A DNA stretch of 64,000 bases from Natrinema salifodinae (GTDB lineage: Archaea; Halobacteriota; Halobacteria; Halobacteriales; Natrialbaceae). This document shows, in pieces, positions 10,429 to 35,915 of this stretch. The DNA lies in NCBI RefSeq assembly GCF_900110455.1, contig NZ_FOIS01000001.1, positions 992,001-1,056,000 of the forward strand, given 5' to 3'. Position 1 is the first letter of the stretch. Every line of letters begins with the position of its first letter. A program made the position numbers and the translations under genes. The notes beneath the pieces are model-generated. The model saw only the letters and a program-made list of their open reading frames with translations. It was not told where the DNA came from and did not search any database.

Positions 10429-10430
10429 TG

Positions 10431-12383
10431 TCAGCGCCCTCCGTCGTCCGTCATCGTCAGGTCCACGGTCACGTCTTCGACGGCGAACAGCGACGTTTCA
10501 TCGATCAACACGGTTCGTTCGTCGATGGTCGTGCCACCGTGGGCGGTGACCGTCACGTCGGTCACGCGGTCGATCGCGTCGAGTTCGCCGACCACAGCAG
10601 CCAGTTCCGATCCGTCGAGCGCGCGTCCGAACGGCCATCCGTCGCCGTCGTACCCGTACAGCGGGTGGAGATAGGACGTGACGGCCTCGGTGACGTCCGC
10701 TTCGTACCCCCCACTGGTGTACCGGGGACGAGTGCGCCCTGCGACGGTGAGTTCGAGCCGGACGTACCGCGGGCCGGTCACGTGGACGCGGTCCGTCAGC
10801 AGGGTTCGCTCTCGAAGGTGTCGCCGGACGGACTCGAGAAAGCCCTCACTCGGGTCCGGATTAGGAACGTCGGGTGGCGCGTACGGGACGACGACCACGG
10901 TGGTTCGGTCACCGTCGATCGAGACGTTCGTCCGGCTAATTCGAAGTCCGGGCGTCCGCGAGGCGAGGTGTCGATAGTCGCTCTCGGTGACCGCGCGAGA
11001 TGGCCGCCTGAGATCACGCCTGGCGCGTCGAAGGGTTGCCTCGATCGTCTCGTAGTCGGTGCCGCCGCTGGCTGCACGCAACGGGGTGACGTCGATGTCG
11101 GCCGGCGAGACGTCTGCCGGCAGTTGCGTACTCGAGTCCGTGAACTGCCAGACTGCGGTCGACGAGACGTTTCCTTCCTCGCCGCCGCCGTAGACGTAAT
11201 CAGCGGTGATCGTCGCGTCCGGTGCCGGGACACGACCGGCATCGCCATCGCCGAACGTCACGCGGCCACGCTCTCGGTCGAGTACGTAGTGTGGATCGTC
11301 GGGCCCCGACGCGTCGAAGTCGGAGACCTCGACGAACCGGTGACCGTCGACGCGTATCGTGGCCGAGAGGATCGGCCGGTTCGCGAACGCGTACGTCTGC
11401 CCGTCGAGTCTCGCCGATGCGTCCGTCCCGTTCGCGTTCCCCTCGGGAGACAATCGCTCGTCGGCGACCGATGCGGCGTGGCTGGCGGTGACGACGTTCG
11501 TCCTGATCGCGTCGACCTGTGGCGGAATCTCGTGGCCTGGCGTCTCGACGCGACACCGCACCCAGACGTAGTCGTCCGCTCCGTCGATCGGAAACTCGCA
11601 GTTCCGAGCCGGTGGCGGCGACGGAGTGGTGGCTCCGGCGAGTTCGATCGAGCCGCCCTCGTACAGGGCGTTCGTTTCGTCCTCAGCGACTGAGAGCGAT
11701 CGCCACCGCCCATCCCCGGGGTCGCGGTACTCCCAGGCGAGTTCGACCGACGGAGTAATCGTGACGGACCGATCCCCGGAGACCGGCGCTGGCTCCGGGA
11801 GATTGGCGTCGTGGTAGTCGATCGAGAGCGTGAGCCGGTCGGCGCTCTCGAACGGGTCGTAATCGAAGCCCAGATAGACGGCGTCACCTCGAGCGACGTC
11901 GTCGCCGAAGGGACGATAGAACATCCCGTCGGTCCGGTTCGCTTCCCCGTGTTCGGTCGATCCCGTTTCGTCGACGGTGACCACCCGCTCGATGGTGGCA
12001 GCGGTGAGAACCACCGTCCGGTCGGTCTCGAATCGATAGACGTCGCCGGTGCCATCGGTGACGGCCAGGCGCGTTCCGGCCGGCAGGCGTTCTCCCGTCG
12101 CCGCTGCGGGCGGCGACAGCTCAACCGCGGCCGTCGCCGGGGTCGGCGGACGACGGTCGTACCCGATCAGTCGCAGGTACTTCTCGCGGTGTTCGTCGGT
12201 GATCTGATCGAGTTGGTAGGTGTGCGTCTCGGTAAGCCAGGCGAGCACCTCGAGGATGGTGATTCCCGGATCGTGCGGGTTGAAGTCGGTCCACTCGTCC
12301 GAGTACGCCGGAATCCGTTTTTTCGCCTGTTCGAGCAACTCCTCGTACTCCCTATCGTCGAGATCTGGTACGTCGATTCCCAT
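10431..12383 (-). CDS. gpJ-like baseplate assembly protein (second wedge copy)
   Basis: This 650-residue protein is a putative baseplate wedge component related to phage P2 gpJ and T4 gp6/gp7. Near the N-terminus, YSDEWTDFNPHDPGITILEVLAW is the classic opening of the eCIS wedge protein; beta-rich insertions follow. The C-terminal third contains the J domain (LRRPSRAVTESDYRHLA, VVVVPYAPPD, then SYLHPLYGYDGDGWPFG). The YLHP-x-GDGW-FG segment is shared with the 1075-residue paralogue upstream, so the two are a heterodimeric or successive wedge pair. The start is ATG 12381-12383, six bases after the 39-residue gene. Confidence 0.88.
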   Translation of the reverse strand: MGIDVPDLDDREYEELLEQAKKRIPAYSDEWTDFNPHDPGITILEVLAWLTETHTYQLDQITDEHREKYLRLIGYDRRPPTPATAAVELSPPAAATGERLPAGTRLAVTDGTGDVYRFETDRTVVLTAATIERVVTVDETGSTEHGEANRTDGMFYRPFGDDVARGDAVYLGFDYDPFESADRLTLSIDYHDANLPEPAPVSGDRSVTITPSVELAWEYRDPGDGRWRSLSVAEDETNALYEGGSIELAGATTPSPPPARNCEFPIDGADDYVWVRCRVETPGHEIPPQVDAIRTNVVTASHAASVADERLSPEGNANGTDASARLDGQTYAFANRPILSATIRVDGHRFVEVSDFDASGPDDPHYVLDRERGRVTFGDGDAGRVPAPDATITADYVYGGGEEGNVSSTAVWQFTDSSTQLPADVSPADIDVTPLRAASGGTDYETIEATLRRARRDLRRPSRAVTESDYRHLASRTPGLRISRTNVSIDGDRTTVVVVPYAPPDVPNPDPSEGFLESVRRHLRERTLLTDRVHVTGPRYVRLELTVAGRTRPRYTSGGYEADVTEAVTSYLHPLYGYDGDGWPFGRALDGSELAAVVGELDAIDRVTDVTVTAHGGTTIDERTVLIDETSLFAVEDVTVDLTMTDDGGR

Positions 12384-12389
12384 ATCGTA

Positions 12390-12509
12390 TCACCTCTGGC
12401 CGCCCGTTCGACGGGGTGAGCGGCGAGCCCGTGATTCCGTTCTGTCGTCGATCGCGGCTTCGGTTGACAGCCGTCCGCGTTTTCGCCGCGACGGTCCCGG
12501 ACGCGTCAT
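12390..12509 (-). CDS. 39-residue Arg-rich protein, coupled inside baseplate operon
   Basis: An ATG at 12507-12509 overlaps the TAA stop of the 1075-residue gpJ-like gene (TAATG) and reads 39 codons to TGA at 12390-12392. The product is strongly basic (MTRPGPSRRKRGRLSTEAA... ending RRTGGQR), unlike the acidic haloarchaeal proteome. The frame fills the whole gap between the two wedge genes, leaving six bases before the next start. That supports a real coupled gene, although a basic peptide could also be a chance frame in GC-rich DNA. No homology is recognised. Confidence 0.45.
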   Translation of the reverse strand: MTRPGPSRRKRGRLSTEAAIDDRTESRARRSPRRTGGQR

Positions 12510-15500
12510 TACGTCGTCTCCTCCACGGTGACGGTGATCCGGTGAGAGCCGTTGCAGACGAGCGTGTCTCGTGGGAGCGAGCGGTGGGTCCCGTGTTCCG
12601 ACAGCGACCACCGTTCGCCGCCGGTCTCGATCGTGACGTCGAATTCGAGCACCTCGGCGACGGAATCGACGCCGGCGACGACCTCGGAGAGGTCGTCGAT
12701 ATCCGGGACGACACCGAAGTCCCAGCCGTCCCCATCGTTCCCCCGCAAGGGATGGAGATACTGGTCGAGACGACGCTCGACCGCGCCTTTGAGCAAGGAG
12801 ATGCTCTTGACGGTGGTCGCGTGGAGCGTCATCTCGATCGATAGCTCACCGTATCCCGGTCCGCGGACGACGATGTCCGCGTCGTCGGCGGCGACGAGCG
12901 ACGCCGGTGCGTGGTCGGACAACGTCTCGCGGACACGATGTTTGAGCTCCATCGACGGGACCGGCTTCTCCCGTTCGGTCTGTGGAACGATCAGCACCGT
13001 CACGCGCGAGCCGTCGCCCGCCCCGAGATCGGGATCGCACGTAACCCGGGCCAGTTCCGGGAACGCAGCTTTGGCGACCTGTTCGTAGTCACGAGGGGTT
13101 ACCGCCCTGCCGCGGTGTTTGAGTCGGTTCGTCGAGCGCGCGACGAGCGTCTCGGTCGATTCGACGTCGGCGCCGCCGTCGGCCGGCGTCGGGTTCGACA
13201 CCGACTCCACCAGGGCGACCGAACTCTTCAGATCGGATACCGTCTCGGCCTCGACGTTGCCGTCGCTTCCCCCACCAGTAGTATACGTGGCCCGTACGTT
13301 GTCCTGGCCGGCCGGCGGAATCGCGCCGTTGGTCCCGTCTCCGAACTCGACGACGCCGAGCGTTTGATTGACGACGTAGTGTCTGTCGGTCGGCTCCGAA
13401 TCGAGGAAGTCGGCGACTGCGGTCCAGCGGACCCAGAACGCGGTGAGTTCCTCCCGCGAGTTATACTCGGGTTCGACGACCGACGGGTTCTCAGCGATCA
13501 GTTCGCGGCGCTGTCCGGCCGGCAGGGTCGACAGTTCGTCTACCCACACATCAATGTCGATTACGGGGGCGTGCGCGCACCTGAACGACTGGTCGTGGGA
13601 ACCGTCGCTGGAGCCGAGTGTCTCGTCCTCGATCGTGACGGTGTTGTACGCCCACTGCGTGTTCGGATAGATCCCTTCGAGAACGGGCGGGGTCGTCGTC
13701 CGCTCGCTCGCGACGTCGGCCGGAACCGATTCCGCCGCGGGTTCGGTTCGGCCAGCGGGCTCCGAATCCGGTGTGACCGACTCCACTCGAGCGCCGTGAC
13801 GACCGCGATCGATAGCGAACTCGTTTTTGGTCACGCGGGCGCGGATCCAGTGGCGCTTCCGGTCGAACAACTCGACTGCGGTCGTCGAGTCGGGAAACGT
13901 GAGCGTGACGATCCCCCGTTCGGTCAGTCCACCGGTTCGGTCGTGGGCGTCGAGCTTTGCCCACTCGGATCCGGCAGCGTCGACGCAGTACTCCCACTGG
14001 ACTCCGGGATCGAACGACTGTGGATAGGTCGTGTCCGTAACCGGGACGAACAGCGTCAGCGGGCCGTTCTCCAGTACGTCGTCGAACCCGAAGTACAGCG
14101 CCTGGCGGGCGTCGGGCGTCTCGACGAACGGCGAAAACGCGCCCGGCCGGTTCGTGAGATCGTCGCTGTAGGCGGCATTGTTGTAGCTAAATACGGTTTC
14201 GAACGACTGGGCACCGCGGTCGTAGTGAACGCTGACGTCGCCGAACGCCGGCGCGTCGGGTTCGTCGACGAGCGCTCCGCGGCCCCCCTCACTCGTCACC
14301 TCGAACGACGGCTGGCCGTAATTGCCGCTGACCAGGCGGGCGCGGATCCAGACGTTCTCGTGCCCCGAGACCGTCGTAGGCGAAACGTCGTCCGGGACTT
14401 CGAATCGAACGACACCGGGAGTCCGAAGCGCGTCAGTTCCGTCCTCAATCGAATCCAATCGCGTCCACCCGTCACCGTTCCAGTACTCCCAGGAGAGTCT
14501 CGGAGACCCGCCGAGGACGCCGATACCGTCGGCTCCGGAGAGACCGGCTGTCGCCGCGTCGGCATCCCTACTCGAGGCCGTGACATCGTTCTCGTCGCTC
14601 GCCGCGTCGTCGGTCGGCGGCGAGACGAACTCGAGGTCCACGACGCCGCCGAGTTTTGTGAACGCCTCCTGGCAGGCCACGTAGAACGTCGCCGGCGGGT
14701 GTGGAATCCGACCGAACGGTCTGATGGGGCCATCGTCCGGCGAAAGCGGCACGTCGTTCGACAACAGCATGTCCGGGTCCAATCCGCCCTCCCGACCGGC
14801 GCTGGCGACGTGTACTGACAGCGACTCGATCGTCGTCGAGAGAACGCTCGACTCGCGGTCGTCGATAGAACACCGAACCCACCGGCTCTCGACGCCGTTG
14901 ACTTCGCGTTCGACCGTCGTTCCGGGGAGACGAAACGTCCGTTCGACACTGCTCTCGTTTCCGTTCCCGTTCCCGTTCGCCTGGCCCACCGTCGTCGAGC
15001 CGGACTGTAACCGTTCCTGAAGCGCCTCGACTCCGATTTCGGTGTCTCCACGGCGTCCGTCCGACGGGTGGACAAGCTCGTACCACCCTTCGTTCCCGTC
15101 CGCGTCCTCGCCGTAGTACTCCCAGACGGTCGCCTCGAAAAACCGTTCGGCGTCGCCAGCGGTCTCGACCGAGAGCGATAGCGACGAGCCTGCCTCGAGA
15201 TTGAGCGCGGCCTCGTTTCCCAGATAGAGGACGTGCGATTGCAGGTTTTTTCCGGTGAATAGTTCGGTCGATTCCGCTTCGAGGACGTCGCTGTGATCGA
15301 CGATGACGTCGGCACCCGGGTTGACGCCGACGACGTCCGTCAAACGAGCGGGCGTCGCCTCGAAGCCACCGTCCTGTGGGAGTTCGAATAGATGCGAATC
15401 ACCGCCGGCCGGATCGGCAATCGCCTGCGTTCCACCCGGAATCGGCACGTTTCTATCGATATCCGTCGAGATACGGAACGTGAGTGGCGTTCTCGCTGCC

Positions 15501-15736
15501 TGTGGTGGACAGCGATCGAAGTCGAGCGCGTCCAGAAAAGCGAGTAGGTGTTGCGCCGGAACTTCGTTCAGGCGCTTCCGAGTGTCGGCCTCGAACGACG
15601 AGAAGATCCGTAACAGCGTTCGCCCGACGTCGCTCGTGTTCGGATCCCACGTCTCGGTATACGCGTCAGCGCGTTCGAGTAGCGTCTCGAACAGTTCCTC
15701 CTGATTCCGCTCGTCGATGATCGGTTCGTCGTTCAT
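12509..15736 (-). CDS. gpJ-like baseplate assembly protein (large wedge copy)
   Basis: This 1075-residue protein is the large wedge protein of the contractile particle (Pvc11/Afp11-type, T4 gp6-like). The N-terminus contains the family pattern PNTSDVGRTLLRIFSSFEAD and LAFLDALDFDRCPPQAARTP. The middle holds several repeated beta domains that look like successive discoidin- or Ig-like insertions (LSWEYWNGDGWTRL, WEYCVDAAGSEWAKL, each followed by VWIRARLV- or HWIRARVT-type strands). The J domain is at about 850-1040 (HRGRAVTPRDYEQVAK, YLHPLRGNDGDGWDFG). The start ATG overlaps the stop of the 43-residue gene by ATGA. Confidence 0.9.
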   Translation of the reverse strand: MNDEPIIDERNQEELFETLLERADAYTETWDPNTSDVGRTLLRIFSSFEADTRKRLNEVPAQHLLAFLDALDFDRCPPQAARTPLTFRISTDIDRNVPIPGGTQAIADPAGGDSHLFELPQDGGFEATPARLTDVVGVNPGADVIVDHSDVLEAESTELFTGKNLQSHVLYLGNEAALNLEAGSSLSLSVETAGDAERFFEATVWEYYGEDADGNEGWYELVHPSDGRRGDTEIGVEALQERLQSGSTTVGQANGNGNGNESSVERTFRLPGTTVEREVNGVESRWVRCSIDDRESSVLSTTIESLSVHVASAGREGGLDPDMLLSNDVPLSPDDGPIRPFGRIPHPPATFYVACQEAFTKLGGVVDLEFVSPPTDDAASDENDVTASSRDADAATAGLSGADGIGVLGGSPRLSWEYWNGDGWTRLDSIEDGTDALRTPGVVRFEVPDDVSPTTVSGHENVWIRARLVSGNYGQPSFEVTSEGGRGALVDEPDAPAFGDVSVHYDRGAQSFETVFSYNNAAYSDDLTNRPGAFSPFVETPDARQALYFGFDDVLENGPLTLFVPVTDTTYPQSFDPGVQWEYCVDAAGSEWAKLDAHDRTGGLTERGIVTLTFPDSTTAVELFDRKRHWIRARVTKNEFAIDRGRHGARVESVTPDSEPAGRTEPAAESVPADVASERTTTPPVLEGIYPNTQWAYNTVTIEDETLGSSDGSHDQSFRCAHAPVIDIDVWVDELSTLPAGQRRELIAENPSVVEPEYNSREELTAFWVRWTAVADFLDSEPTDRHYVVNQTLGVVEFGDGTNGAIPPAGQDNVRATYTTGGGSDGNVEAETVSDLKSSVALVESVSNPTPADGGADVESTETLVARSTNRLKHRGRAVTPRDYEQVAKAAFPELARVTCDPDLGAGDGSRVTVLIVPQTEREKPVPSMELKHRVRETLSDHAPASLVAADDADIVVRGPGYGELSIEMTLHATTVKSISLLKGAVERRLDQYLHPLRGNDGDGWDFGVVPDIDDLSEVVAGVDSVAEVLEFDVTIETGGERWSLSEHGTHRSLPRDTLVCNGSHRITVTVEETT

Positions 15737-15864
15737 GGCGCCACGACCCTCCGTCCGAGGACACCGATCGGCGGCCGACCGACGACCGTCCGGGTCGATC
15801 GAACCGTGTCTACCTCGGGTTCGGCTCGTATCGGTTCCAGTGCGTCCATTTTCGGATCACCCAT
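15733..15864 (-). CDS. 43-residue small protein between gp25 and gpJ
   Basis: An open frame begins with ATG 15862-15864, inside the last codons of the gp25 gene, and ends with TGA at 15733-15735. That stop overlaps the start codon of the following 1075-residue gene (ATGA). Both ends are therefore translationally coupled, which is strong evidence for a real gene. The 43 residues (MGDPKMDALEPIRAEPEVDT, then a basic VVGRPPIGVLGRRVV tail) show no recognised domain. It may be a small linker or chaperone of the wedge. An internal ATG five codons in is an alternative start. Confidence 0.65.
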   Translation of the reverse strand: MGDPKMDALEPIRAEPEVDTVRSTRTVVGRPPIGVLGRRVVAP

Positions 15865-16255
15865 CTCCTTCCGTGATGTGAAACGGATAGACCATGTTCG
15901 CCAGGCTGTTCGTCGTCCGAACGCGGTAGTCGATCTCGATCAGAATTCTGTTCGGATCCTCGGCGTCGGTTCTGGCGGTAAGGTCCTCGACGTCGATCCG
16001 CGGCTCCCAGCGCACGAGCGCCTCGCGGACGCTACTCTCGATGAGATTCAGCGTCGACGGCGACGCGGACGAGTAGACGTGATCGTGGATGTCACAGCCG
16101 AACTCCGGGCGCATGATGCGCTCGCCTTTCGCCGTTCCGAGGATGATTCTGATCGCTTCCCGAATGTCGGCTTCGGCGTCGGAAAGTTCGATGTCGCCAC
16201 GCTGGTCTGACGTAACCGGGTACTGCCACCCGGTTCCGAGGAAGTCGTCCGCCAC
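15857..16255 (-). CDS. gp25/GPW baseplate wedge protein
   Basis: This 132-residue protein belongs to the gp25/gpW family, the small wedge protein that helps trigger sheath contraction. The diagnostic motif WEPRIDVEDL (the conserved EPR) is at about residues 86-95, preceded by REAIRIILGTAKGERIMRPEFG. It begins with a GTG at 16253-16255, four bases after the PAAR stop, and overlaps the next small gene by eight bases. The family motif implies that a contractile sheath exists or existed, although none is encoded in this window. Confidence 0.93.
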   Translation of the reverse strand: MADDFLGTGWQYPVTSDQRGDIELSDAEADIREAIRIILGTAKGERIMRPEFGCDIHDHVYSSASPSTLNLIESSVREALVRWEPRIDVEDLTARTDAEDPNRILIEIDYRVRTTNSLANMVYPFHITEGDG

Positions 16256-16258
16256 GGT

Positions 16259-16549
16259 TCACCCGATGTGAACGGTTGGACAGCCGCCAACGATCGTGTT
16301 TGGCGGCCCATTCTCGATTATTTTGTCGCCCATCCTCGCCGCCGGCAGTTTGTTGATCAACACGCTCTCGCTTCCCATCGCGACGGTACCGCCGACGTGC
16401 GGGACGGCCCCCGACGTCAGCGGACAGGTGTGAACGTCTGCGCCGGCGCGCCACGCTGGGCGCTTTCCTATCAACACGTTCGGACTCGCGGTACCGGTCA
16501 GCGGCGTTCCGTGTGCGGTCGCATCGCCAAGTCTTGCTGCGGGTTTCAT
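16259..16549 (-). CDS. PAAR-motif spike-tip protein
   Basis: This 96-residue protein is a PAAR-repeat cone that caps the spike of contractile machines and binds a metal ion with His/Cys. The opening KPAARLGDATAHGTP and the later LINKLPAARMGDKI are the two PAAR-type repeats; HTCPL and GGCPTVHIG supply likely metal ligands. There is no C-terminal effector extension, so cargo would have to ride elsewhere. It lies between the spike gene and gp25 in the usual order. Confidence 0.93.
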   Translation of the reverse strand: MKPAARLGDATAHGTPLTGTASPNVLIGKRPAWRAGADVHTCPLTSGAVPHVGGTVAMGSESVLINKLPAARMGDKIIENGPPNTIVGGCPTVHIG

Positions 16550-16604
16550 GTATCGATCAGCTGGTTCGTTCTCTCGTCCGTGTCTGTCGCAGTCGATTTG
16601 TCTC

Positions 16605-17342
16605 TCAGTTCAGTTGAATAATGGCGCCGCGGATCGTCAACGGTCCCGTCGAATCGATCCCCATCAGTCCGCTGCTCGAAATATCTAGCCGGGCCTTGCT
16701 CGACAGTTCGATCGTGTTCTTGCTCGAGATCGTGACGTCCGTGCCACCGGCGATTTCGACCGACTTCGATCCATCGATCGTGACGTTCGGGGCCGACAGA
16801 TCGAGTTCGTCGTCGGCGGCGATCGAAATCCGTCCCTTCGAGGAGTCGAGCGTGATGGTGTTGTCCCCCCGGTCGTCGCTGATCGTGATCGTCTCTACGC
16901 CGTTCGAATCGTCGACGATGATCTCGTGTCCGTCGCTCGTTCGGATCGTAATGCTCCCGTCGTCGCCGTCGTCGAACGCGATCGTATGTTCGCTTCGCGA
17001 CCGGATCTCGCGAATATCGTTGTTCCCGGCGTTTCGCCGTGGTGGCTTTTGCGCTCCGTTCCAGAGTGACCCGACGACGTACGGATTGTGGATGTCCCCG
17101 TTCTCGAACGCGACGAGCACCTCCTCGTCGACCTCGGGCAGAAAGTACGTCCCGTACTCGTCGCCCGCCATCGGTGCGGCGAGCCTGGCCCAGTGGCTCT
17201 CGTCGTCCGTATCTCGCCACGGGAACCGGAGCTTTACGCGACCCAGGTCTTTCGGATCCTCGTTGTCGGTAACGATGCCGACGACGACACCCTGAATACC
17301 GCCCTCGGAGGTCTCGCCGTCGAAGATGCCCGGATCGCTCAC
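16605..17342 (-). CDS. gpV/gp5-like spike protein
   Basis: This 245-residue protein corresponds to the baseplate assembly protein V or gp5/VgrG spike. An OB-fold domain (VVVGIVTDNEDPKDLGRVKL, PEVDEEVLVAFENGDIHNPY) covers roughly residues 15-115. A C-terminal triple-stranded beta-helix (about 125-240) is made of short repeated strands such as SITIRTSDGHEI, TITLDSSKG and VEIAGGTDVTISS. It begins with a GTG that overlaps the stop of the gpD-like gene (GTGA). No lysozyme domain is inserted, fitting an archaeal host or target without murein. Confidence 0.93.
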   Translation of the reverse strand: MSDPGIFDGETSEGGIQGVVVGIVTDNEDPKDLGRVKLRFPWRDTDDESHWARLAAPMAGDEYGTYFLPEVDEEVLVAFENGDIHNPYVVGSLWNGAQKPPRRNAGNNDIREIRSRSEHTIAFDDGDDGSITIRTSDGHEIIVDDSNGVETITISDDRGDNTITLDSSKGRISIAADDELDLSAPNVTIDGSKSVEIAGGTDVTISSKNTIELSSKARLDISSSGLMGIDSTGPLTIRGAIIQLN

Positions 17343-18364
17343 GATGACACCTCTACCGCCTCGAACGTGGTGCGGTAGCCTGCGGCGCCCATTCGGTGCG
17401 TCGCCTTCGTAACGTGGTAGTCCCCCGAGAAGCGGTCCCCGAGCTCGGCGAGTCGGATCGTTTCCCCGGCTCGTATCTCCGGGATGCCGTCGGCCTCGCC
17501 GTGAGCCTGAACGGTTCCGTCGGAGTACCGGTTGTGTTTCGTCTCTGCGATACGTTCGGCTTCGTCACGTGACATAGCTGGCACTCTAAACACCTCTTTG
17601 TGTGTCGCGTCGGAACTGCCCGCAGTCGCGACGATCTCCGTCTTTTTCCCGATGTCCCACGACCGGACCTCGACCTGGTAGTGACGTTTTCGCTGCGTGA
17701 TTTCGCCGAAGAAATCGTGGAGCGATTCCCCGTACCACAGTTCGGCGACCGGATCGTCGGTCACTGCTGACGATCGCGGAACGAACCTGACGGCGTCCCG
17801 TTTCGCGTAGAACTCGAATCCGTAGGTCGAAGCGAGATCGTGGATGAACCGATAATCGCTACAATCGTTTTGGATAAGTTTCTCGCGTTTGACGTCTGCA
17901 CTGTCTACCTCTATCGACGAGAACGGATACGACGACAGGACGTCCGTGACGGCATCGCCGATGGTGGTCGTCGACCACGAGTCCGAGCGGGTCCCTTGCA
18001 TCGCCTCCCAGAGCAATCCGTATCCGGACACCTGCACTGAGGGACCTCGATCAGCGGCGAACTCACCGGTTATCGACTGGATCTTACCGGTCAAAAGCGG
18101 CGTGAGTTGGCCATCGTCGCCGTAACCCATCGAAATGTCCACGTCGGTTCCGACGTCGAAGTCGTCCCACGACAGTCCGGCGAACTCGTCTAGTTCCTCG
18201 TCGAAGGGATAGTTCAACGTAAAGGAAAACCGGTCTGCCCCCTCGAAGGTCGTCTCCACCACGAGATCGGCTATCCTGCCGCCCGGCTCTTGGAACGTCT
18301 GATCGCCGATATCGACCTTGAATCGGGGTGAATATCGTGGATGGTTGTCCAATTCAGCGCTCAT
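17339..18364 (-). CDS. gpD/gp27-like hub protein
   Basis: This 341-residue protein is the phage late control D / gp27-like hub that adapts the tube to the spike. Typical parts are RYSPRFKVDIGDQTF at the N-terminus, VSGYGLLWEAMQ near residue 117, a SYPFSSIEV strand and DCSDYRFIHDLASTYGFEFY (about 160-185). It is full length for the family and is followed by the separate gpV gene with a four-base overlap. The hub and spike are thus split over two genes rather than fused as in VgrG. Confidence 0.92.
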   Translation of the reverse strand: MSAELDNHPRYSPRFKVDIGDQTFQEPGGRIADLVVETTFEGADRFSFTLNYPFDEELDEFAGLSWDDFDVGTDVDISMGYGDDGQLTPLLTGKIQSITGEFAADRGPSVQVSGYGLLWEAMQGTRSDSWSTTTIGDAVTDVLSSYPFSSIEVDSADVKREKLIQNDCSDYRFIHDLASTYGFEFYAKRDAVRFVPRSSAVTDDPVAELWYGESLHDFFGEITQRKRHYQVEVRSWDIGKKTEIVATAGSSDATHKEVFRVPAMSRDEAERIAETKHNRYSDGTVQAHGEADGIPEIRAGETIRLAELGDRFSGDYHVTKATHRMGAAGYRTTFEAVEVSS

Positions 18365-18416
18365 GAGTTCGAATATGATGTCGGCGTTGGAGTCGAGTTG
18401 ATCGTCGGTCGTGTCG

Positions 18417-19088
18417 CTACAGCGGCGGTAGTTCGAGCGTTTCCCCCGGCTCTATCGCGCGCGGGTTGGCGATGTCGTTCTGGTTTGCGATCGTTCGCCA
18501 GTGGGACGGGTCACCGTACTCCTCCGACGCAATGAGCCAGAGCGTGTCTCCCTCGGTTACCGTCCACACCTTGGTCTTGTCCGTCGATTCGGGGGCCACC
18601 TCCGACTTGTGATAGTCGGCCGTCTTGAACTCGGAGAAGACGATTGACACGCGAGCCCGGATCGGGATTCCGCTCGGAAGGAACTTGGTGAACTGTTTGT
18701 TAGCGCTCCGGACCAGCGCCGTGAAGTCGATTCCGTCACCCCAGACGAACCGGCAGACCGGCGGCGCGTGTAACTCTCCGTCGACCGACAGCAGCAGGTC
18801 GATGTACTTCGTGTACCGCTCGCGAACGTCGACTGCAGCGTCGTCGACATCGTCCGACTCGAGTTCGTCGGTCGTATCGAAGAACAGTTCCATCGAAAGC
18901 GTCTCCGCGTTCCCGTCCACGAACTGCATGATCGACGCCCCCGATCCCGTGGCTTTCATTTCGCCGTAGTTGACGCTCTTCTCGAGCGTGTAGGAGTTCG
19001 GGTTGAACTTACACTCGATCGTCTCTCCCTTTCGTTTCCCGTTTACGATCATGATCTGTGCCTTCTCGAGTTTGCCACCAGTCGCCAC
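18417..19088 (-). CDS. LysM-domain tail hub protein
   Basis: This 223-residue protein is the Pvc7/Afp7-like (T4 gp53-related) protein with an N-terminal tail-domain segment (IECKFNPNSYTLEKSVNYGE) and a C-terminal LysM module (KVWTVTEGDTLWLIASEEYG, about residues 172-223). In contractile machines this protein sits where the tube meets the baseplate. The start is GTG 19086-19088, directly adjoining the stop of the 1422-residue gene. LysM here binds other baseplate parts rather than murein (family knowledge). Confidence 0.92.
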   Translation of the reverse strand: MATGGKLEKAQIMIVNGKRKGETIECKFNPNSYTLEKSVNYGEMKATGSGASIMQFVDGNAETLSMELFFDTTDELESDDVDDAAVDVRERYTKYIDLLLSVDGELHAPPVCRFVWGDGIDFTALVRSANKQFTKFLPSGIPIRARVSIVFSEFKTADYHKSEVAPESTDKTKVWTVTEGDTLWLIASEEYGDPSHWRTIANQNDIANPRAIEPGETLELPPL

Positions 19089-22000
19089 CTAGAACCCCCT
19101 CCGTTCACGTTCGACTCGCTGTTTCCGTTCGATCTTCCGGTAGAGTCGTTCAACGAGCCGGTCTACGTCGGCCTCGAATTGGAGCGAGTTCCCGTCCCAC
19201 GGAAGTTCGGACGGCTCAGATCGATCGCGAGCGTCTCGTCGACCTCGGTCGTGACCGTCCGGATCGGACGGCTGCTCGCTTGCAGGCTTGCGCCCTGAAG
19301 CGGACCCATCGATACGGCCAACGCGTTGCGGGGTGTCTGCCGAGGAGGTGTTGGCGAGCCCTCTCGGTCGTCCGCGACCAGGTTCGTTCGTCGACTGTCG
19401 GCTTCCCCCGGCGTTGCCTCTCCGACGGTCGGCTGGACGCACCGTACCATCATCACGCTCTCCGGTCGAACCCGTCGTGCGTCCGTGGAGCCCCCGCCTC
19501 GCCGCCGTCGACCGCGAATCGTGCGAGCGTTCGGCGGCGTCGGCGAATCGATCGCGAGCGGATTCGCCGATGATCGATGTCCCCGCAGACTTCGTTTCGT
19601 CCGCTCTCGACCCAGTGGTGCCCGCTCTAGCGGAAACCGATGGTGTAGGGTCGCGATAGACGAGCGCTGGCCGATTGCTACTCGAGTTCATTCTGTTTCT
19701 CTCCGACCCCTCTCCGTTCACTTTTTTAGAATCTATTTTGTATTTAGTGATTTCGTTATCGTTACCAGACACGATCGGTACCGATCCGTCGATCCTGGTT
19801 GCCGTTGAGGTAGCCACCTGCCGTTCGGTCGCCGTGCTCGGGAGATCGACCTGCGCGCTGGTCGAGTCTCGAGGCGATCGCTCCATCGCCTGGCTCGCAC
19901 CGACGGTGTCCGACGCTACTATCGCCCGTGTATTGAGGTCAGATCTCCGCTCACCGTCGTCCAGCGGATCGGCTTCCGGCGTCTCGCTCGTCACCGTCCT
20001 GCCCTCGGTTCGCGCACCGCTTGCCAGCGGCGACGCTCGAACGGTCGCTCCGCCGCTCGTCGGCATCGGCCCCGCGACGTCGTCGGGGCCGTCGCTACTA
20101 CTGCGGCTGTCATCGGGCCCCGCTGACGCCACGCTACGTCGTCGTCGCACCGACGGCGACAGTCGACCAAGGTCCGTCATCCCGCTCGTCTGTGGCCGAA
20201 CTGGACGTGAATCAACGGCAGCTCCGATCGAGTCCTCCGGAGCGTCCGTATCGAAACGTGTTGCACGCTGCGACGGGGCCCAATTCGGATCGGCGACCGT
20301 AACGACCCTGGTCGCGGAGACCGCACCGTCGAAAGCGGTCCCATCCGGATCAAACCGCGTTCGATCGTCGGTCGCGTCGAACTCCGAGCGTCGGCCGCCG
20401 GTGTGTGGCCGCCGATCGACCGTCGACCGCGACTGCGTCTCGACGGGCTGCCTCTCGACGGGCGATCGAGTTCCCACGTCGTCAGTCGGCCGCCGTTCGT
20501 TGGGTCCATCGCGCGTCAGCTCGCCGCGATTTTGGTCGGTCGGTCCGCCCTCGGTGACCGAATCCGCCAGGCGCACCGCCGGCGACCCCAGCACTGATCC
20601 GTTCCCGTTCGCGGATCGCGAGTGATCCGCCTGAATGCGGCCGGACGGGTCGGGTCGACTGTCGCATCGATCGGTCGATTCGACCGAGTGGGTGTGGCCG
20701 GACGAGGGTCTGACCGAGCGCTGTGACGACGAAATCGAGTCCGTGCCCGAGGTCGCAACACGCGGTGTGAGCGGAGCCGTCGGACCGCCGGTCGTGATCA
20801 CCGGCTTCGACGGTCGATTACTGGCATTTCGGCGTCTTCTTCGGGCCGACCTGGGGATCGAACTAACGGGACCGAGATCGTGGGGACCGGACGCGGGCGC
20901 ATCCGTTTCTGCGGGTGCCGTCCCGTCCCTGTTCTCCGCCGTGCCGTCACGTTTGTTCACGCCTGGCGTCGCCGTCGTCTCCTGAGGTCGTGCTCCGTGA
21001 CCATCCCGATCCGCTGGCTCGGCGCGGGTAACGGAAGCGGACGCGGACGCCGTCGGAGTCGCGTCTGTAGCCGTTCTCGCTCGACCGACCGGATCGTCGC
21101 CGTTCGACGCTTCGACGGCGCGTCCGAGCCGAGACCCTCGTAGTGACGATGCCGACTCCGTTTGGGTTTCGATCGCGACGTCGGCCCCGGCAGAGACGGA
21201 GCGGGCAACCGACCGCTGAGCGGCCCTCGATCGTCCCGTGCCAGTACGACCGGCGTCGGTGTCGATACCGGTCCCGGTGACAGCAGTTGGGAACGGCCGG
21301 CTCGATCGGAACTGTGTCACAATTCTTGTCGTCGTGATCGCCGTCTCGAGACCGCCCTCGTCAATCACCTGCGCGAATCGGCGATCCGAACGACCCTGTG
21401 GACCATCGTCTCTCCGCGACGTTTCGGGGTCGGCGGCGTGAGCGGTTCGTATTCGCCGAGCGAACGAGTTCGAGAGACCCCCCGCCGGAGCAGTCGACCG
21501 ATCGAGGGGCCGCTCACCGTCGACGGGCGATCGGCCACCCTCGACAGAACGGCGGTTCGACGTCGTCAGCCCTGACGAGGAACGCGGTGTCGGTCGACTC
21601 GATCCGTTCCTCGATTCGGAATCTGCCACCCGAGACAGCGCCGGCAGGTTCCGTGATTCTGATGCCGCTCGGCCAGCCGTCGGCGATCGATCCGCCGGCG
21701 CTGGAGAAACTGGGCACCCGTCAGCGGTCTCGGCCGACACCAGGCGTCGGTCGTTCGCACCGACCGACGAATCCGTCCGCCGAACATCCGCGGTAACGCG
21801 AGCGTGATCGGACGGCCCAGATGACGCCGTTTTCCGGCTACTGTTCCCGCAGTCGTCGACGGGATCTCGGTCCGAACTGTCGGGATCGGTGTCAACTGGG
21901 TGTTCCGTCGGGACGTCCGTGGTGACGACTGATCGGCTCCGCGCGTCTCCGCCAGGCGAATCGTGATCCCCGTCAGTGACGGTCGCCGTCGACGGGCGTG

Positions 22001-23357
22001 AAGGGGTACTGCGAGCGGAATCGAGAGGCGCTCCGCCCGAGAGCAACCGTCGTCCGAAATCCGATCGTCGACGTGTAACAGTGGCCGCCGATCGGCTCCG
22101 ACCCTCTCCGTCGGTATCATCGGTCGGCGCAGTGTCGAATCCGGCGTCGCCCCGCCGCTCAATCGACCGCGACGGATCAGGTTCGTCGACCAGTACCGTA
22201 TACGCCGCCGAGTGTCGAGGAGACGATCGCCGGCCGGCACGACGCTGTGCCGACCGGGAATCGATCGCCGCGGCCGGATCAGCCAATTCGCCGATGGTCA
22301 CCCGGCGACGAACGGCATCGATCCCGACGGCGGTTCCGAACGGGGCCGTCCGCTCGCGGTGTCGGAATCGGGCGGTCGACCCCGTCGTGTCCTCCGGTCG
22401 ACCGGCGGCCTCACCGCGTCGCTCGAGTGCATCGGTAGCGGTCGGTGTCGGCGACCCGGACCGGGCACCGCTATCGCGGTCCGCCACGCGCGTCGGTGAT
22501 CCAATTACGACGCGTTCACCATCCTCCGTCGCCGTCGGTGACGGAACTGATGGCCGCAGTGGCGACTGAATCGAGTCGCCCACGTCCGGAGCGGCTCCCT
22601 CACCACCGATCGGTCGTGGCTCTCGGACGGGTCGGCCGGATCGAGTCATCGGAGCGTCGCGAGGCCGCCTGGCCGTCTCGCCGTCGGAGACCGTCCGGCG
22701 AGCGTCGGTTTCGGATTCACCGCTCCCCGCGGAGGCGACCGTTTCGAACCGCACACCGGCGACGCGGCCGGTGTCCGCACCCGAGTCCGAACGCGACTGC
22801 GTATCCGACATCGGTCCAGTGCGACCGGGCGACCGGGCGATCGTTCGTGATTCGCTCGTCCGAACGGCCGGCGCACCCGACCGGAGCCAGGCGGCCGATA
22901 GAGGGGATCGCCCGTCCTCGGCTGGCGAGTCGGACAGCGACGAGACTGGGGGGTGGCCCGTCTCCGACTCGTCCGCCGGAGCGGGGAGAAACGATCCGTC
23001 GGAAGCGTCAGCTTGTGATTCGGACGGTCTCGCGGCAGCTCGCGGTCGCGGGTGGACGCGAAACGTGAACTCGGCCGCCGCGTACCGGTTCCGGATCCGG
23101 AGGGCGAACCGATCGGCCAGGCGAGCGGGATCGATCGTTCCGATCGACCTGTGTCGACGATCCGGACCGTCGATCCGCAGTCGGTCCACCGCTCCGGCGG
23201 TCGTCACCGTGTCGGTGCTCCCTCCTCCCGGTACGCTGTGCCCGTCTCCATTGTCGTCGTCGCTGTTCGTCTCCGTCGCCACGCCGGACCAGGCGGTGCT
23301 TACGCTGATCTCGCGGAGTGCCGACGCTGCCGTCGAACCCGTCCACTCGCTCGTCAC
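19089..23357 (-). CDS. 1422-residue disordered Arg/Ser/Thr/Asp-rich protein of the injection operon
   Basis: This very long frame is uninterrupted for 4.2 kb and abuts the LysM gene. The N-terminal 110 residues may be folded (IGTIDPARLADRFALRIRNR, then YAAAEFTFRVHP). The rest is low-complexity sequence dominated by R, S, T, D, G, P and A, with recurring short beta-like units such as TRIVTQFRSS, TRVVTVADPN and RVVIGSPTRV. The last 30 residues (ADVDRLVERLYRKIERKQRV) form a strongly charged helix, which I recall as a common ending of small proteins at this position in other contractile operons. It starts with GTG 23355-23357 behind a TATA-like box at 23444-23452. It is not tape-measure-like, since it has no long hydrophobic helices. 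The function is unknown. Confidence 0.7.
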   Translation of the reverse strand: MTSEWTGSTAASALREISVSTAWSGVATETNSDDDNGDGHSVPGGGSTDTVTTAGAVDRLRIDGPDRRHRSIGTIDPARLADRFALRIRNRYAAAEFTFRVHPRPRAAARPSESQADASDGSFLPAPADESETGHPPVSSLSDSPAEDGRSPLSAAWLRSGAPAVRTSESRTIARSPGRTGPMSDTQSRSDSGADTGRVAGVRFETVASAGSGESETDARRTVSDGETARRPRDAPMTRSGRPVREPRPIGGEGAAPDVGDSIQSPLRPSVPSPTATEDGERVVIGSPTRVADRDSGARSGSPTPTATDALERRGEAAGRPEDTTGSTARFRHRERTAPFGTAVGIDAVRRRVTIGELADPAAAIDSRSAQRRAGRRSSPRHSAAYTVLVDEPDPSRSIERRGDAGFDTAPTDDTDGEGRSRSAATVTRRRSDFGRRLLSGGAPLDSARSTPSRPSTATVTDGDHDSPGGDARSRSVVTTDVPTEHPVDTDPDSSDRDPVDDCGNSSRKTASSGPSDHARVTADVRRTDSSVGANDRRLVSAETADGCPVSPAPADRSPTAGRAASESRNLPALSRVADSESRNGSSRPTPRSSSGLTTSNRRSVEGGRSPVDGERPLDRSTAPAGGLSNSFARRIRTAHAADPETSRRDDGPQGRSDRRFAQVIDEGGLETAITTTRIVTQFRSSRPFPTAVTGTGIDTDAGRTGTGRSRAAQRSVARSVSAGADVAIETQTESASSLRGSRLGRAVEASNGDDPVGRARTATDATPTASASASVTRAEPADRDGHGARPQETTATPGVNKRDGTAENRDGTAPAETDAPASGPHDLGPVSSIPRSARRRRRNASNRPSKPVITTGGPTAPLTPRVATSGTDSISSSQRSVRPSSGHTHSVESTDRCDSRPDPSGRIQADHSRSANGNGSVLGSPAVRLADSVTEGGPTDQNRGELTRDGPNERRPTDDVGTRSPVERQPVETQSRSTVDRRPHTGGRRSEFDATDDRTRFDPDGTAFDGAVSATRVVTVADPNWAPSQRATRFDTDAPEDSIGAAVDSRPVRPQTSGMTDLGRLSPSVRRRRSVASAGPDDSRSSSDGPDDVAGPMPTSGGATVRASPLASGARTEGRTVTSETPEADPLDDGERRSDLNTRAIVASDTVGASQAMERSPRDSTSAQVDLPSTATERQVATSTATRIDGSVPIVSGNDNEITKYKIDSKKVNGEGSERNRMNSSSNRPALVYRDPTPSVSARAGTTGSRADETKSAGTSIIGESARDRFADAAERSHDSRSTAARRGLHGRTTGSTGERDDGTVRPADRRRGNAGGSRQSTNEPGRGRPRGLANTSSADTPQRVGRIDGSASGRKPASEQPSDPDGHDRGRRDARDRSEPSELPWDGNSLQFEADVDRLVERLYRKIERKQRVERERRGF

Positions 23358-32374: not shown

Positions 32375-33373
32375 ATGACAGCGGATCTCGAACCTGACGG
32401 CGAGGATCGTTCGGATCCCGAGAGGGACGAGCGCTCCGCGGGCCGTTCACGAGCGGACGAGCAGACTGGTCCCCCGCAGCGGGTGCTGACCGACGGCGGC
32501 CAGGCGGAGATGGAAGAAGAAGCCGAAGAGACGGACGCCGACGAGGAAGCCGAACCGGACGAGGACGACGCGGAGGCCGAGGAGGCGGGAGACGAAGAGA
32601 GCGAGGAACCGGCGGACGAAGACGTAACGGACGAGGAATCCGCCGACGAAGACGAAACGGAGACCGAGAGCGAATCCGAGGACGAGACGGACGAGGAGGA
32701 AGGTGAAGCACCGGAAGAGGAGACGGAAGAAGAGGAAGGGGAAGAGGACGTAGAAGGTGAAGCTCCGGAAGAGGAAGAGGAATACCACGTCGAAGGCGCC
32801 GACGACGTCTACCAGAGCGACGAGACGTCGGGCGTCCTCCACCTCGACCTCGACGGGCTGTTCCTCGATCTGCTCGGACTCGAGGTCAACCTCGATCCGG
32901 TCACGCTGGACGTCTCGGCGCGACCCGGCGAGAACAACCTGCTCGGAAACCTGCTGTCCGCGGTCTCGGGACTGCTGGACGGCCCGGGTGCCATGGTCGA
33001 TAAGGCGAAGTCGATGCTCGGCAAGCCGATCGAGTTCGTCAAGAACCTGCTGAACAAGCCCGTCGAGCGGCTCACCGGGCTCTTCGGCGGGGGCGAGGAA
33101 GCACCCGACGAGGAGGGTGAAGAGACCGAGGCCGAAGACGAGTCGCCTGGCCGGATCGCCTCGGCGGTAAGCCGGCTGAAGGCGGGCGTCTCATCGGCGG
33201 TGAGCGGGCTGAAGCAGCGCCTGGCCGGGCTCGTACCTAGCTTCCCGACCGAGGAGATCGTGTCGGCGATCGTGAGCGCGATCCTCGAACAGCTGCTCGA
33301 GCAACTCGAACCGGACCGCGACGAAGAGGCCGGCGGACAGCCGGAACCGTCACAGGCGGAGGCATCATCATGA
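32375..33373 (+). CDS. acidic-cluster protein 1 (LLGL/NLLGNLL domain)
   Basis: This 332-residue protein has a very acidic N-terminal half (residues 40-145 are almost entirely Glu, Asp, Ala and Ser). A folded segment follows at about 150-185 (VLHLDLDGLFLDLLGLEVNL ... VSARPGENNLLGNLLSAV). I recall the same motif from secreted bacterial proteins of unknown function, where it usually reads NLLCAV; the cysteine is serine here. Amphipathic helices follow (KAKSMLGKPIEFVKNLLNK, IASAVSRLKAGVSSAVSGLK) and a hydrophobic helix (EEIVSAIVSAILEQLLEQL). No signal peptide is seen. It overlaps the next gene by ATGA. The function is unknown; membrane-surface or protein-shell association is a guess from the amphipathic helices. 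Confidence 0.75.
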   Translation: MTADLEPDGEDRSDPERDERSAGRSRADEQTGPPQRVLTDGGQAEMEEEAEETDADEEAEPDEDDAEAEEAGDEESEEPADEDVTDEESADEDETETESESEDETDEEEGEAPEEETEEEEGEEDVEGEAPEEEEEYHVEGADDVYQSDETSGVLHLDLDGLFLDLLGLEVNLDPVTLDVSARPGENNLLGNLLSAVSGLLDGPGAMVDKAKSMLGKPIEFVKNLLNKPVERLTGLFGGGEEAPDEEGEETEAEDESPGRIASAVSRLKAGVSSAVSGLKQRLAGLVPSFPTEEIVSAIVSAILEQLLEQLEPDRDEEAGGQPEPSQAEASS

Positions 33374-33870
33374 GCGACGAATCGACAAGCGACGACTCGG
33401 AGTCACTGTCCCAGCGCATCGACGCGGAAAAGATTACCGACAACGTCGACGTCGAGAACCTGGTCGAGGGCACTCAGTGGGAAGACGAGATCGACGAGGA
33501 CAAGCCCCTCGGCGAGGCCTTGGGCGGTCAGATCGGCGCGATCCTCGGGCGAGCGATCGGCGAGTCCCTCGGCCGGACGATCGGGAACATGGTCGTCGAC
33601 GAACTGCTCAGTCCCGACGAGGAAGAAGCGGAAGAGGAGGACGCCGAAGAAGCTGAGGAATCCGAAGGAGAAGAAGAGACCGAAGCCGAGGACGAGGAGA
33701 CAGCCGACGGAGACGAATCGGAGAGCGACGGCGAAGGGGACGAATCGGAAGCCGAGGACGGCGGTGAAGGCGACGGCGAAAACGGAGACGAAGCCGAAGA
33801 CGGATCGGACGCGGACGACGCCGAGGAACAGGAGCAAGACCAAGAAGCGGAAGCCGAAGCGGAGGAGTAA
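33370..33870 (+). CDS. acidic-cluster protein 2 (glycine-zipper)
   Basis: This 166-residue protein has a short N-terminal domain (ITDNVDVENLVEGTQWEDE). A glycine-zipper helix follows (LGGQIGAILGRAIGESLGRT, about residues 52-75) with Gly every four residues. The tail of about 80 residues consists almost only of Glu, Asp, Ala, Gly and Ser. The same N-terminal and zipper arrangement recurs in protein 3, showing paralogy by duplication. Glycine zippers mediate tight helix packing or membrane insertion in other families. It is translationally coupled to protein 1 and has no recognised homologue. Confidence 0.72.
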   Translation: MSDESTSDDSESLSQRIDAEKITDNVDVENLVEGTQWEDEIDEDKPLGEALGGQIGAILGRAIGESLGRTIGNMVVDELLSPDEEEAEEEDAEEAEESEGEEETEAEDEETADGDESESDGEGDESEAEDGGEGDGENGDEAEDGSDADDAEEQEQDQEAEAEAEE

Positions 33871-33935
33871 GACCGTGACCGTGATCGAAACGAGGGGGAA
33901 CTTCCCCGACCGTGGAGCCGCACGAGGTGATCGCC

Positions 33936-34940
33936 GTGAGTGACGGAGCCGGCCTGAAGAGCATGGTCGCCAAGGAAGTCAGTAACCAGGTCGACGTCGC
34001 GGATATGCTCAGCGACGGGAGTCTCGAGGACAGCATCGACGGCGGCGAGATCGGCGCCGCGGTCGGTCGCCGGTTCGGCGAGCAGTTCGGCCGCGAACTC
34101 GGCGCGTCGATCGGCCGCGAGGTCCACGAGACGATCGCGGACGGCGTCGAGGAAGGGAAGGAACTCGGCGAGATTCGGACCGACCTGGCGACGGCGATTC
34201 AGAACGCCATGCGCGAATCGGTCTCGGATATCGAGGGACGCGACTCGCTCGAATCGCTGGCCGAGGGCGTGAGCGAAGGCGGCGGCGTCGAGGGGCTCGT
34301 AGACGGTATCGGAAGCGCCATCAGCGGCGAGAGCGACGAAGCGGCCGACGCCGACGAAGCAGACGAGGACGAGACCGAAAGCGACGCGGAAGCGGCCGCC
34401 GACGAGACGGACGAATCCGAGAGCAAGGCGGCCAGCGCTCGAGACGCGGTCGAGTCGGCCGCCGAGTCGGCCGGCGAGGCCGCCGAATCGGCCGGGGAGG
34501 CCACCGGACTCGGCGACGTGCTCGGAAGCGACGAGGGCGAGAGCGACGCCGAGTCCGTGCCGGAAGCCGAAAGCGATGAGGAAACGACGACCGAGGACGA
34601 ATCCGAAAGCGAGGTCGAAGCCGACGAAACGGAAGCCGAGGAAGAGCCGACGGACGAGGCGGAAGCCGAGAGCGGGGACGAAGCCGAAGCCGCGACCGAA
34701 GAGAGCGACGAGAGCGACGAACCCGAGCCGTCGATGGACGATCTCGAGGATCTCAGGCGGGACACGCTCGAGGACTTCCTCGGGATCATGTCCTACAGCG
34801 ATCTGCAGTCGATCGCCAAGGACGTCGGCGTGAAGGCCAACCTCAGCCGCGAGGAGATGACCGCGGAGATCATCGAGACGGTGACGGACGACGAGTCGGA
34901 TTCGGAGTCCGACTCGGAAGCGGAAGCAGAGGCCGAGTGA
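33936..34940 (+). CDS. acidic-cluster protein 3 (glycine-zipper plus C-terminal helical domain)
   Basis: The chosen GTG start at 33936 (MSDGAGLKSMVAKEVSNQVD, 334 residues) has a Shine-Dalgarno-like gaggtga 5-11 bases upstream; a GTG at 33912 is possible. The N-terminal VDVADML-x-LEDSIDGGEIG and the zipper IGAAVGRRFGEQFGRELGAS align with protein 2. A long acidic Ala/Glu/Asp/Ser region follows, with a phase of heptad-like AESAGEAAESAGEA. The last 70 residues include a folded helical domain, DLRRDTLEDFLGIMSYSDLQ followed by IAKDVGVKANLSREEM, reminiscent of SAP or Rho-N helical modules. The function is unknown. Confidence 0.72.
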   Translation: MSDGAGLKSMVAKEVSNQVDVADMLSDGSLEDSIDGGEIGAAVGRRFGEQFGRELGASIGREVHETIADGVEEGKELGEIRTDLATAIQNAMRESVSDIEGRDSLESLAEGVSEGGGVEGLVDGIGSAISGESDEAADADEADEDETESDAEAAADETDESESKAASARDAVESAAESAGEAAESAGEATGLGDVLGSDEGESDAESVPEAESDEETTTEDESESEVEADETEAEEEPTDEAEAESGDEAEAATEESDESDEPEPSMDDLEDLRRDTLEDFLGIMSYSDLQSIAKDVGVKANLSREEMTAEIIETVTDDESDSESDSEAEAEAE

Positions 34941-35030
34941 TCGACCGAACGGCTCGCCGGTTCCCGATTCCGAACCGGCCGGCCAGGCGGCCGTGAGCGA
35001 ACCGCGGCGAGCGATACCGGAGCCAAACCC

Positions 35031-35915
35031 ATGACCGAGACCGATCACGACCAACTACGCGACCGCGTACGCGAGGTACTGAACGCGGCCGATACGTCCA
35101 GCGGATCGCTTATCGGGGGCGATTCGGACGGCGAGGAAATCGAGGAACGCGGAGACGAATCGGCCGAGACCGACCTGCTCGAGACCGCCAGACGAGCCAG
35201 CGACATCCTCGAGTCGTCCGACCCGGACGAGTTGCTCGACGCGGTCGGCTTGGATACGCTTGCGGACGGGACCGAACCGGACTCGATTCCGGAGGCCATC
35301 ACCAAGGGTGAGCAGGAGAACGTCGAGGACCTCCGTCGGCTGTTGAACCTCGCGAACCTGGCCGACCAGGCCGACGACGACGGCCTCGGTGACGCCGTCG
35401 GCGAGCTCCGGGAGGCGATTAGCGAACATCGGGCGAGCGCCGACGAGTCGGCCGCGGAGGTGTCCGGTGATGGGACCGAAGGGGAAGACGACGGAGGATC
35501 GGCCGGCGAGCCCGATCAGGCGACCGACGACGACGGTGACGCGAGCGGCGACCTTCAGGACCGGCTCCGGTCGGCGATGAGTTCCTCGTTCACAGACTTC
35601 GGCGACGAAGTCCAGCAGTTGCGGGATCGACTCGAGGAGGCGAGCGGCGGCGCCATCGGCGACGACGAAGCGGACGAGAGCGAGGCGGACGAAGCGGAGG
35701 AGACGGCGGCCGACGCCGAGGCCGAGACGGAGGACGAAGCGGACGAGGAGGAAGACGAAGGCCTGCTGGGATCGGGACTCGGCTCGGGTCGGGACCGCGG
35801 GACATCCACCGGCGGCGCGTCCCGTCATTCGACGATGGCGCCGCCGCCGTCCAAACGGGCGGACATGCGCAGCCCGGCACGGTTCTCGACGATGCCCGAC
35901 AAGCACCGCGACTGA
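35031..35915 (+). CDS. acidic-cluster protein 4 (RxSTM tail)
   Basis: This 294-residue acidic protein has two helical regions: DQLRDRVREVLNAADTSSG at the start and ENVEDLRRLLNLANLADQAD near residue 103. A predicted coiled coil follows (DFGDEVQQLRDRLEEASGG, about 186-204). The C-terminus changes abruptly to a basic/proline-rich tail containing two similar units, RHSTMAPPPSKRADM and ARFSTMPDKHRD. Such a repeated short tail could be a docking or sorting peptide (inference). It lies 90 bases after protein 3 and is the last gene of the cluster. Confidence 0.72.
   Translation: MTETDHDQLRDRVREVLNAADTSSGSLIGGDSDGEEIEERGDESAETDLLETARRASDILESSDPDELLDAVGLDTLADGTEPDSIPEAITKGEQENVEDLRRLLNLANLADQADDDGLGDAVGELREAISEHRASADESAAEVSGDGTEGEDDGGSAGEPDQATDDDGDASGDLQDRLRSAMSSSFTDFGDEVQQLRDRLEEASGGAIGDDEADESEADEAEETAADAEAETEDEADEEEDEGLLGSGLGSGRDRGTSTGGASRHSTMAPPPSKRADMRSPARFSTMPDKHRD

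Follow-up and report, generated by a model that had tools for sequence, protein, structure and literature searches.

A conserved four-gene module probably forms a second, detached gas-vesicle accessory operon in gvpC-less haloarchaea

In Halobacterium, the gas-vesicle protein GvpC stabilises the vesicle exterior and uses its C-terminal domain to bind GvpN, O, F, H, I and L (PMC9372576); GvpI binds GvpH, GvpL and GvpC, and its deletion gives rise to very long vesicles (PMC7688916, PMC4390858, PMC9501494). The gas-vesicle (vac) regions of Natrialba magadii, Halopiger, Natrinema pellirubrum and Natronobacterium gregoryi carry neither gvpC nor gvpDE (PMC4390858, PMC3403918). Here we describe four consecutive plus-strand genes, P1 to P4, at positions 32375-35915 of a 64,000-nucleotide stretch of the Natrinema salifodinae genome (contig NZ_FOIS01000001.1, positions 992,001 to 1,056,000; hereafter the window). 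We read them as a second, chromosomally detached gas-vesicle accessory operon of the gvpC-less haloarchaeal vesicle type, with a probability of about 0.62. A sequence-only reading of the window had proposed a possible undescribed system in which no gas-vesicle family could be recognised.

Distribution ties the module to gas-vesicle genes. Across 242 Halobacteria genomes searched with the P1 core and the gas-vesicle family PF00741, the core matched 80 genomes, 78 of them strongly, and PF00741 matched 97; all 78 genomes with a strong P1 match were PF00741-positive (78/78; Fisher 1e-45). The association held within the Natrialbaceae (52 genomes with both, none with P1 alone, three with gvp genes alone and six with neither; p=1.5e-6) and outside them (26, 0, 16 and 139, respectively; p=9e-21). 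A P3 profile recovered the same 78 genomes together with G192, where P2-P4 are intact and the P1 core has been lost, placing the module (G192 counted) in 79 of the 97 gvp-positive genomes and in 0 of the 145 gvp-negative ones. Its other matches comprised a remnant in G092, a 30-residue stretch with a stop in G176, and hits in the gvp-negative G021 and G217 that were confined to the C-terminal part and taken as unrelated or generic SAP-like; the weak P1 matches (G059, G114) were likewise taken as unrelated or generic. At the syntenic site of the gvp-negative congener G092, an upstream element, a coreless P1 and a frameshifted, zipperless P3 remain, P2 and P4 being gone, while in the gvp-negative G028, G203 and G213 the site beside a beta-propeller gene is empty, the pattern to be expected of a module that serves no purpose in a genome lacking gas-vesicle genes. 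P1-P4 is not a stand-alone system, but depends on gvp genes.

In Natrialbaceae, the window included, the module is unlinked to gvp operons and adjoins the beta-propeller gene and cobalamin genes; in the window's genome it lies at C1:1,024,375, ~350 kb from gvpA (C1:675,168). The vac region of this genome comprises gvpO, N, A, F, G, H, I, J, K, L and M, with no gvpC and no gvpDE (calls mostly by Pfam, GvpH and GvpI by purpose-built profiles, and N by an AAA match plus position). Elsewhere, the module adjoins or lies inside gvp operons (L051-L055, L057, L058, L060, L064, L067, L069 and L070). It stands next to gvpO in Halohasta (L067), Halalkalicoccus (L051, L052, L058, L060) and a metagenome-assembled genome (L054), with gvp identity by Pfam, and in Halococcus (L064, L070) P1 and a zipper protein sit within the operon, between gvpH and gvpI. 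The gene-neighbourhood analysis proposed as a check on conserved co-occurrence found the order and orientation P1-P2-P3-P4 kept in nearly all Natrialbaceae loci examined and also in other families, and the cluster is therefore not a product of chance. In Halalkalicoccus, a conserved ~112-amino-acid (aa) protein with CxxC pairs is encoded between gvpO and P1 (L051:8458-8796, minus strand; equivalents in L052, L058 and L060), possibly a further gene of the module.

P4 (35031-35915; 294 aa) provides a direct link to a known gas-vesicle protein. A profile built solely from GvpI proteins of vac loci matched the window's P4 at E=4.7e-12 (residues 3-128, more weakly in the tail) and all 28 detached P4 proteins at 2e-5 or better, against 0.003 for the best non-P4 match and 0.0099 for the best reversed control. 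In a tree, P4 proteins formed a single clade (100/100) separate from vac GvpI; this clade includes L067_8 and L069_8, which a proximity rule had labelled otherwise, and L066_6 groups with GvpI. The GvpI position between gvpH and gvpJ is not that of P4, being taken in L076 by a separate GvpI (L076:11767-12684), and we therefore regard P4 as a paralogue, an ancient one as judged from profile and tree. Both proteins have a similar STM/NPT-type basic tail, which in P4 (35823-35912; ...SRHSTMAPPPSKRADMRSPARFSTMPDKHRD) carries the doubled STM unit noticed at the outset. In contrast to Halobacterium GvpI (pI 10.8), P4 is acidic overall (29.9% Asp/Glu versus 8.2% Lys/Arg) and basic in the tail only; it is encoded away from gvpFGHIJKLM, and the window's genome retains an ordinary GvpI as well.

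The module very probably belongs to the gas-vesicle system. Because P4 is a GvpI paralogue, and because the module occurs only with gvp genes and joins gvp operons in other lineages, P1-P4 adds a new component to an organelle already known and does not define a novel type of compartment. The claim that the cluster shows no recognisable gas-vesicle family has to be withdrawn, and of the four proteins, whose joint assignment to a described family was named as the outcome that would speak against novelty, one (P4) was so assigned. Part of the idea of an undescribed system survives: the cluster is coherent and conserved, no library family covers it (no match above cut-off for any full-length protein in Pfam, NCBIfam or PHROG), and neither P1-P3 nor the detached cluster turned up in full-text searches of the open-access literature. 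Among the coat, condensate and membrane roles put forward, a role at a proteinaceous shell fits, whereas a new compartment kind is at odds with the restriction to gvp-positive genomes and the ancestry of P4; no match to phasins or other granule-coat families was found for P1-P4 in Pfam and NCBIfam at E<=1.

The distribution of GvpC offers a clue to what the module may do. PF01304 matched nothing anywhere, as it does not cover haloarchaeal GvpC, and an alignment of vac-locus GvpCs was therefore used; its profile identified 13 gvp-positive genomes (three further weak matches, at 1e-6 and in very large open reading frames (ORFs), were disregarded) and had no match in the window's own genome. Among the 97 gvp-positive genomes, 78 have the module without GvpC, 12 have GvpC without the module, six have neither and a single one has both (p=3e-10). 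This exception, G005 (Natrialbaceae), possesses two vac regions (L101, L102), one gvpC-less and one with gvpC. In a GvpF tree, rooted by midpoint only, the gvpC-bearing vac loci formed one clade (Shimodaira-Hasegawa-like approximate likelihood ratio test 90) among module-bearing loci, which suggests that the exclusion reflects about one evolutionary switch.

The domain anatomy of P1-P3 resembles that of GvpC in part. P1 (32375-33373; 332 aa) has an acidic N-terminus with a VLTDGG motif, the previously noticed LLGL/NLLGNLL core (32831-32983, supported by alignments; LHLDLDGLFLDLLGLEVNLDPVTLDVSARPGENNLLGNLLSAVSGLLDG), which is conserved in 78 genomes, and an amphipathic helical part (32984-33320) with KP units 11 residues apart. 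The claim of amphipathic repeats rests on relatives of P1, since the tested segment of the window's own protein was not significant (z=0.9): in a hydrophobic-moment and autocorrelation test relatives reached z 3.8-7.8, with an 11-residue periodicity, with proline, in L031, L032 and L038 and an 18-residue periodicity in L057, L058 and L060. Such 11-residue periodic helices recall apolipoprotein/perilipin-type 11-mer proteins, a resemblance in principle only and without sequence homology. A Protein Data Bank sequence search with the P1 core returned no match. Halalkalicoccus and Halococcus P1 proteins are longer, at 600-840 aa (L058:6517-9039, L057:7334-9151, L060:6588-8903), their core being preceded by repeats of Ig-like (carboxypeptidase-regulatory-like) units and followed by 18-residue amphipathic repeats punctuated by Pro, and Haladaptatus halobius encodes P1 relatives on two plasmids (L136, L140) in addition to the chromosome. 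A homologous core is also found in Salipaludibacillus (L151, L176; ORFs near 5641-6231), in small signal-peptide proteins with LDLLGLxLDLxxIxLDLSAVPGPGNLLGNLLSAVAGLLDG; unlike P1, these are secreted, lack an acidic tract and have no gvp neighbours. The core itself is of older origin.

P2 (33370-33870; 166 aa) consists of a glycine-zipper helix (about 33508-33609) followed by an acidic tail, and P3 (33936-34940) of a glycine-zipper helix (34041-34133; GGEIGAAVGRRFGEQFGRELGASIGREVHET), an acidic linker and a C-terminal domain. Both proteins contain more GxxxGxxxG motifs than any of 2000 shuffles (five against 0.39 expected in P2, eight against 0.62 in P3) and match each other by profile, bearing out the proposal of two paralogous zipper modules. 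P2 shows a weak match (E 0.06) to the glycine-zipper domains of PF13488, below the gathering score, and differs from them in having no signal peptide or outer membrane. The SAP/Rho-N-like domain attributed to P3 (34743-34892; LEDLRRDTLEDFLGIMSYSDLQSIAKDVGVKANLSREEMTAEIIETVTDD) was predicted by AlphaFold2 with high confidence as a three-helix SAP-like fold (predicted local distance difference test 91.3, predicted template modelling score (pTM) 0.72). Its top folds were the SAP domains of DEK, PIAS1, Tho1 and FAN1 and Rho-N; Foldseek matches to many SAP domains had template modelling scores of 0.6-0.8 but E>1, and the Pfam SAP_new25/Rho_N match fell below cut-off. The P3 C-terminus aligned by profile with the C-terminus of the GvpCs of G005 and G238 (probability 77, E 2e-5; just two sequences on one side), from which the usual zinc finger is missing. 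These two GvpCs (L102:9054-10076, minus strand, and L093:11683-12933, plus strand) carry a SAP/Rho-N-like end (QYGKLKQAANRVGYDGNLNAAKKDELVAFL) in place of the Halobacterium-type zinc finger.

Haloarchaeal GvpC and P3 therefore share a helical part, an acidic linker and a small C-terminal domain, related in the case of some GvpCs, and the repeated amphipathic helices of P1 provide a further parallel. In contrast, P1-P3 have no GvpC repeats of 32-40 residues and no full-length homology, P3 ends with a SAP-like domain and not with the zinc finger of GvpC, and GvpC and the module are near-exclusive in distribution. Beyond the gvp dependence, the GvpI homology of P4, the GvpC near-exclusion and the domain anatomy obtained here, we infer a surface location and a mechanism for the module. 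The vac region (gvpO-N-A and F-G-H-I-J-K-L-M) would build the GvpA shell, and P4 would join the GvpF/H/L accessory complex and tune assembly or length. P1-P3 would act at the shell surface instead of GvpC, a role that we put slightly below even odds: the amphipathic repeats of P1 may lie on the vesicle wall, the zipper helices of P2 and P3 may oligomerise by packing together, and P3, with its acidic linker and SAP-like tail, may form a docking hub much like that at the GvpC C-terminus.

Several observations weigh against reading P1-P4 as an accessory operon with such a role. With gvpC-bearing loci forming a single GvpF clade, functional replacement is not independently replicated, and the six gvp-positive genomes with neither GvpC nor the module indicate that neither is universally needed. 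The AlphaFold2 model of P1 has a pTM of 0.25, with helices of low to moderate confidence, and the P1 core recurs in the secreted Salipaludibacillus proteins, with no gvp genes nearby. A candidate regulatory motif common to the P1 and gvpA promoters (GCA-N2-CGCA, spotted by eye) was rejected, performing no better than shuffles. Species with the gvpC-less vac type have also been reported as Vac- (PMC4390858, PMC3403918), placing vesicle formation itself in question.

The closest competitor, which we consider somewhat unlikely, is that the module provides assembly factors for nucleation, chaperoning or length control and not a surface coat, P4 acting like GvpI and P1-P3 keeping the hydrophobic GvpA, GvpJ and GvpM soluble or aiding the GvpF/L complex. 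The GvpI ancestry of P4 is in keeping with this, as are the partners and the long-vesicle deletion phenotype of Halobacterium GvpI (PMC7688916, PMC4390858, PMC9501494) and the position of P1 and a zipper protein between gvpH and gvpI in Halococcus L064 and L070; the near-exclusion of GvpC and the resemblance of the P3 C-terminal module to that of GvpC point, weakly, to the surface instead. It is improbable that P1-P3 replace GvpD/GvpE, regulating vac expression or using the SAP-like domain to tether vesicles to DNA: although the P3 fold resembles DNA-binding SAP domains and the vac regions concerned are without gvpDE, proteins that are hyperacidic and carry zippers do not look like transcription factors, SAP-like folds bind proteins too, and no operator common with gvpA was found. 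A granule coat, condensate or membrane assembly unrelated to gas vesicles and co-occurring by lineage only, for which the detachment in Natrialbaceae and the bacterial P1 core without gvp genes might speak, is very improbable and largely refuted by the absence of an intact module from all 145 gvp-negative genomes, co-loss with visible remnants within one family and one genus, operon fusion with gvp in other families, and the GvpI paralogy of P4.

If P1-P4 is indeed a gas-vesicle accessory operon, as coat or as assembly factors, it could help to account for the description of gvpC-less clusters as non-functional, and would give gas-vesicle engineering new parts with which to modify the shell. 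Archaeal gas-vesicle genetics is based on the GvpC-containing systems of Halobacterium and Haloferax, laboratory models from which the module is missing, and the majority type among the gvp-positive genomes sampled (79/97) has four extra conserved genes that heterologous tests of the 11-gene vac region alone would leave out. More tentatively, and possible rather than probable, the widespread and perhaps ancestral haloarchaeal gas vesicle may have a coat unrelated to GvpC, made of an apolipoprotein-like repeat protein (P1) and the zipper/SAP-tail proteins P2 and P3 and guided by a second GvpI, a coat that GvpC replaced once, in the lineage of all laboratory models. Were this so, Vac- species may have been judged unaware that some of their gas-vesicle genes lie elsewhere.

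At the locus itself, a codon-usage gene caller confirmed the four consecutive ORFs. P1 and P2 overlap by the reported ATGA at 33370-33373. The caller placed P3 at 33912-34940, and because most relatives begin at the equivalent of GTG 33936 (334 aa), that start is more likely. Asp and Glu make up 33.4, 43.4, 33.3 and 29.9% of P1 to P4, whereas 42 other window genes average 18.2% and reach 26.7% at most; the proteins are hyperacidic, as proposed, even by haloarchaeal standards, and this acidity by itself says little about them. A 27-bp element before P1 (32321-32347, plus strand; GCAYACGCAAGGNNAANNACCACAACG) is near-identical in Natrialbaceae loci, occurs once in the whole genome allowing up to three mismatches, persists in the degraded locus copy of G092, and is probably the promoter or operator of the operon. 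The window also carries contractile injection system (CIS) genes on the minus strand (8080-19088), namely a CIS tube protein with LysM (18417-19052), a GPD hub, a baseplate V spike, gp25, two Baseplate_J and Tail_P2_I; a link between these and P1-P4 was rejected, as cobalamin genes lie in between. The injection genes are followed by an ORF of 1422 aa, rich in Arg, Ser and Pro, at 19089-23357.

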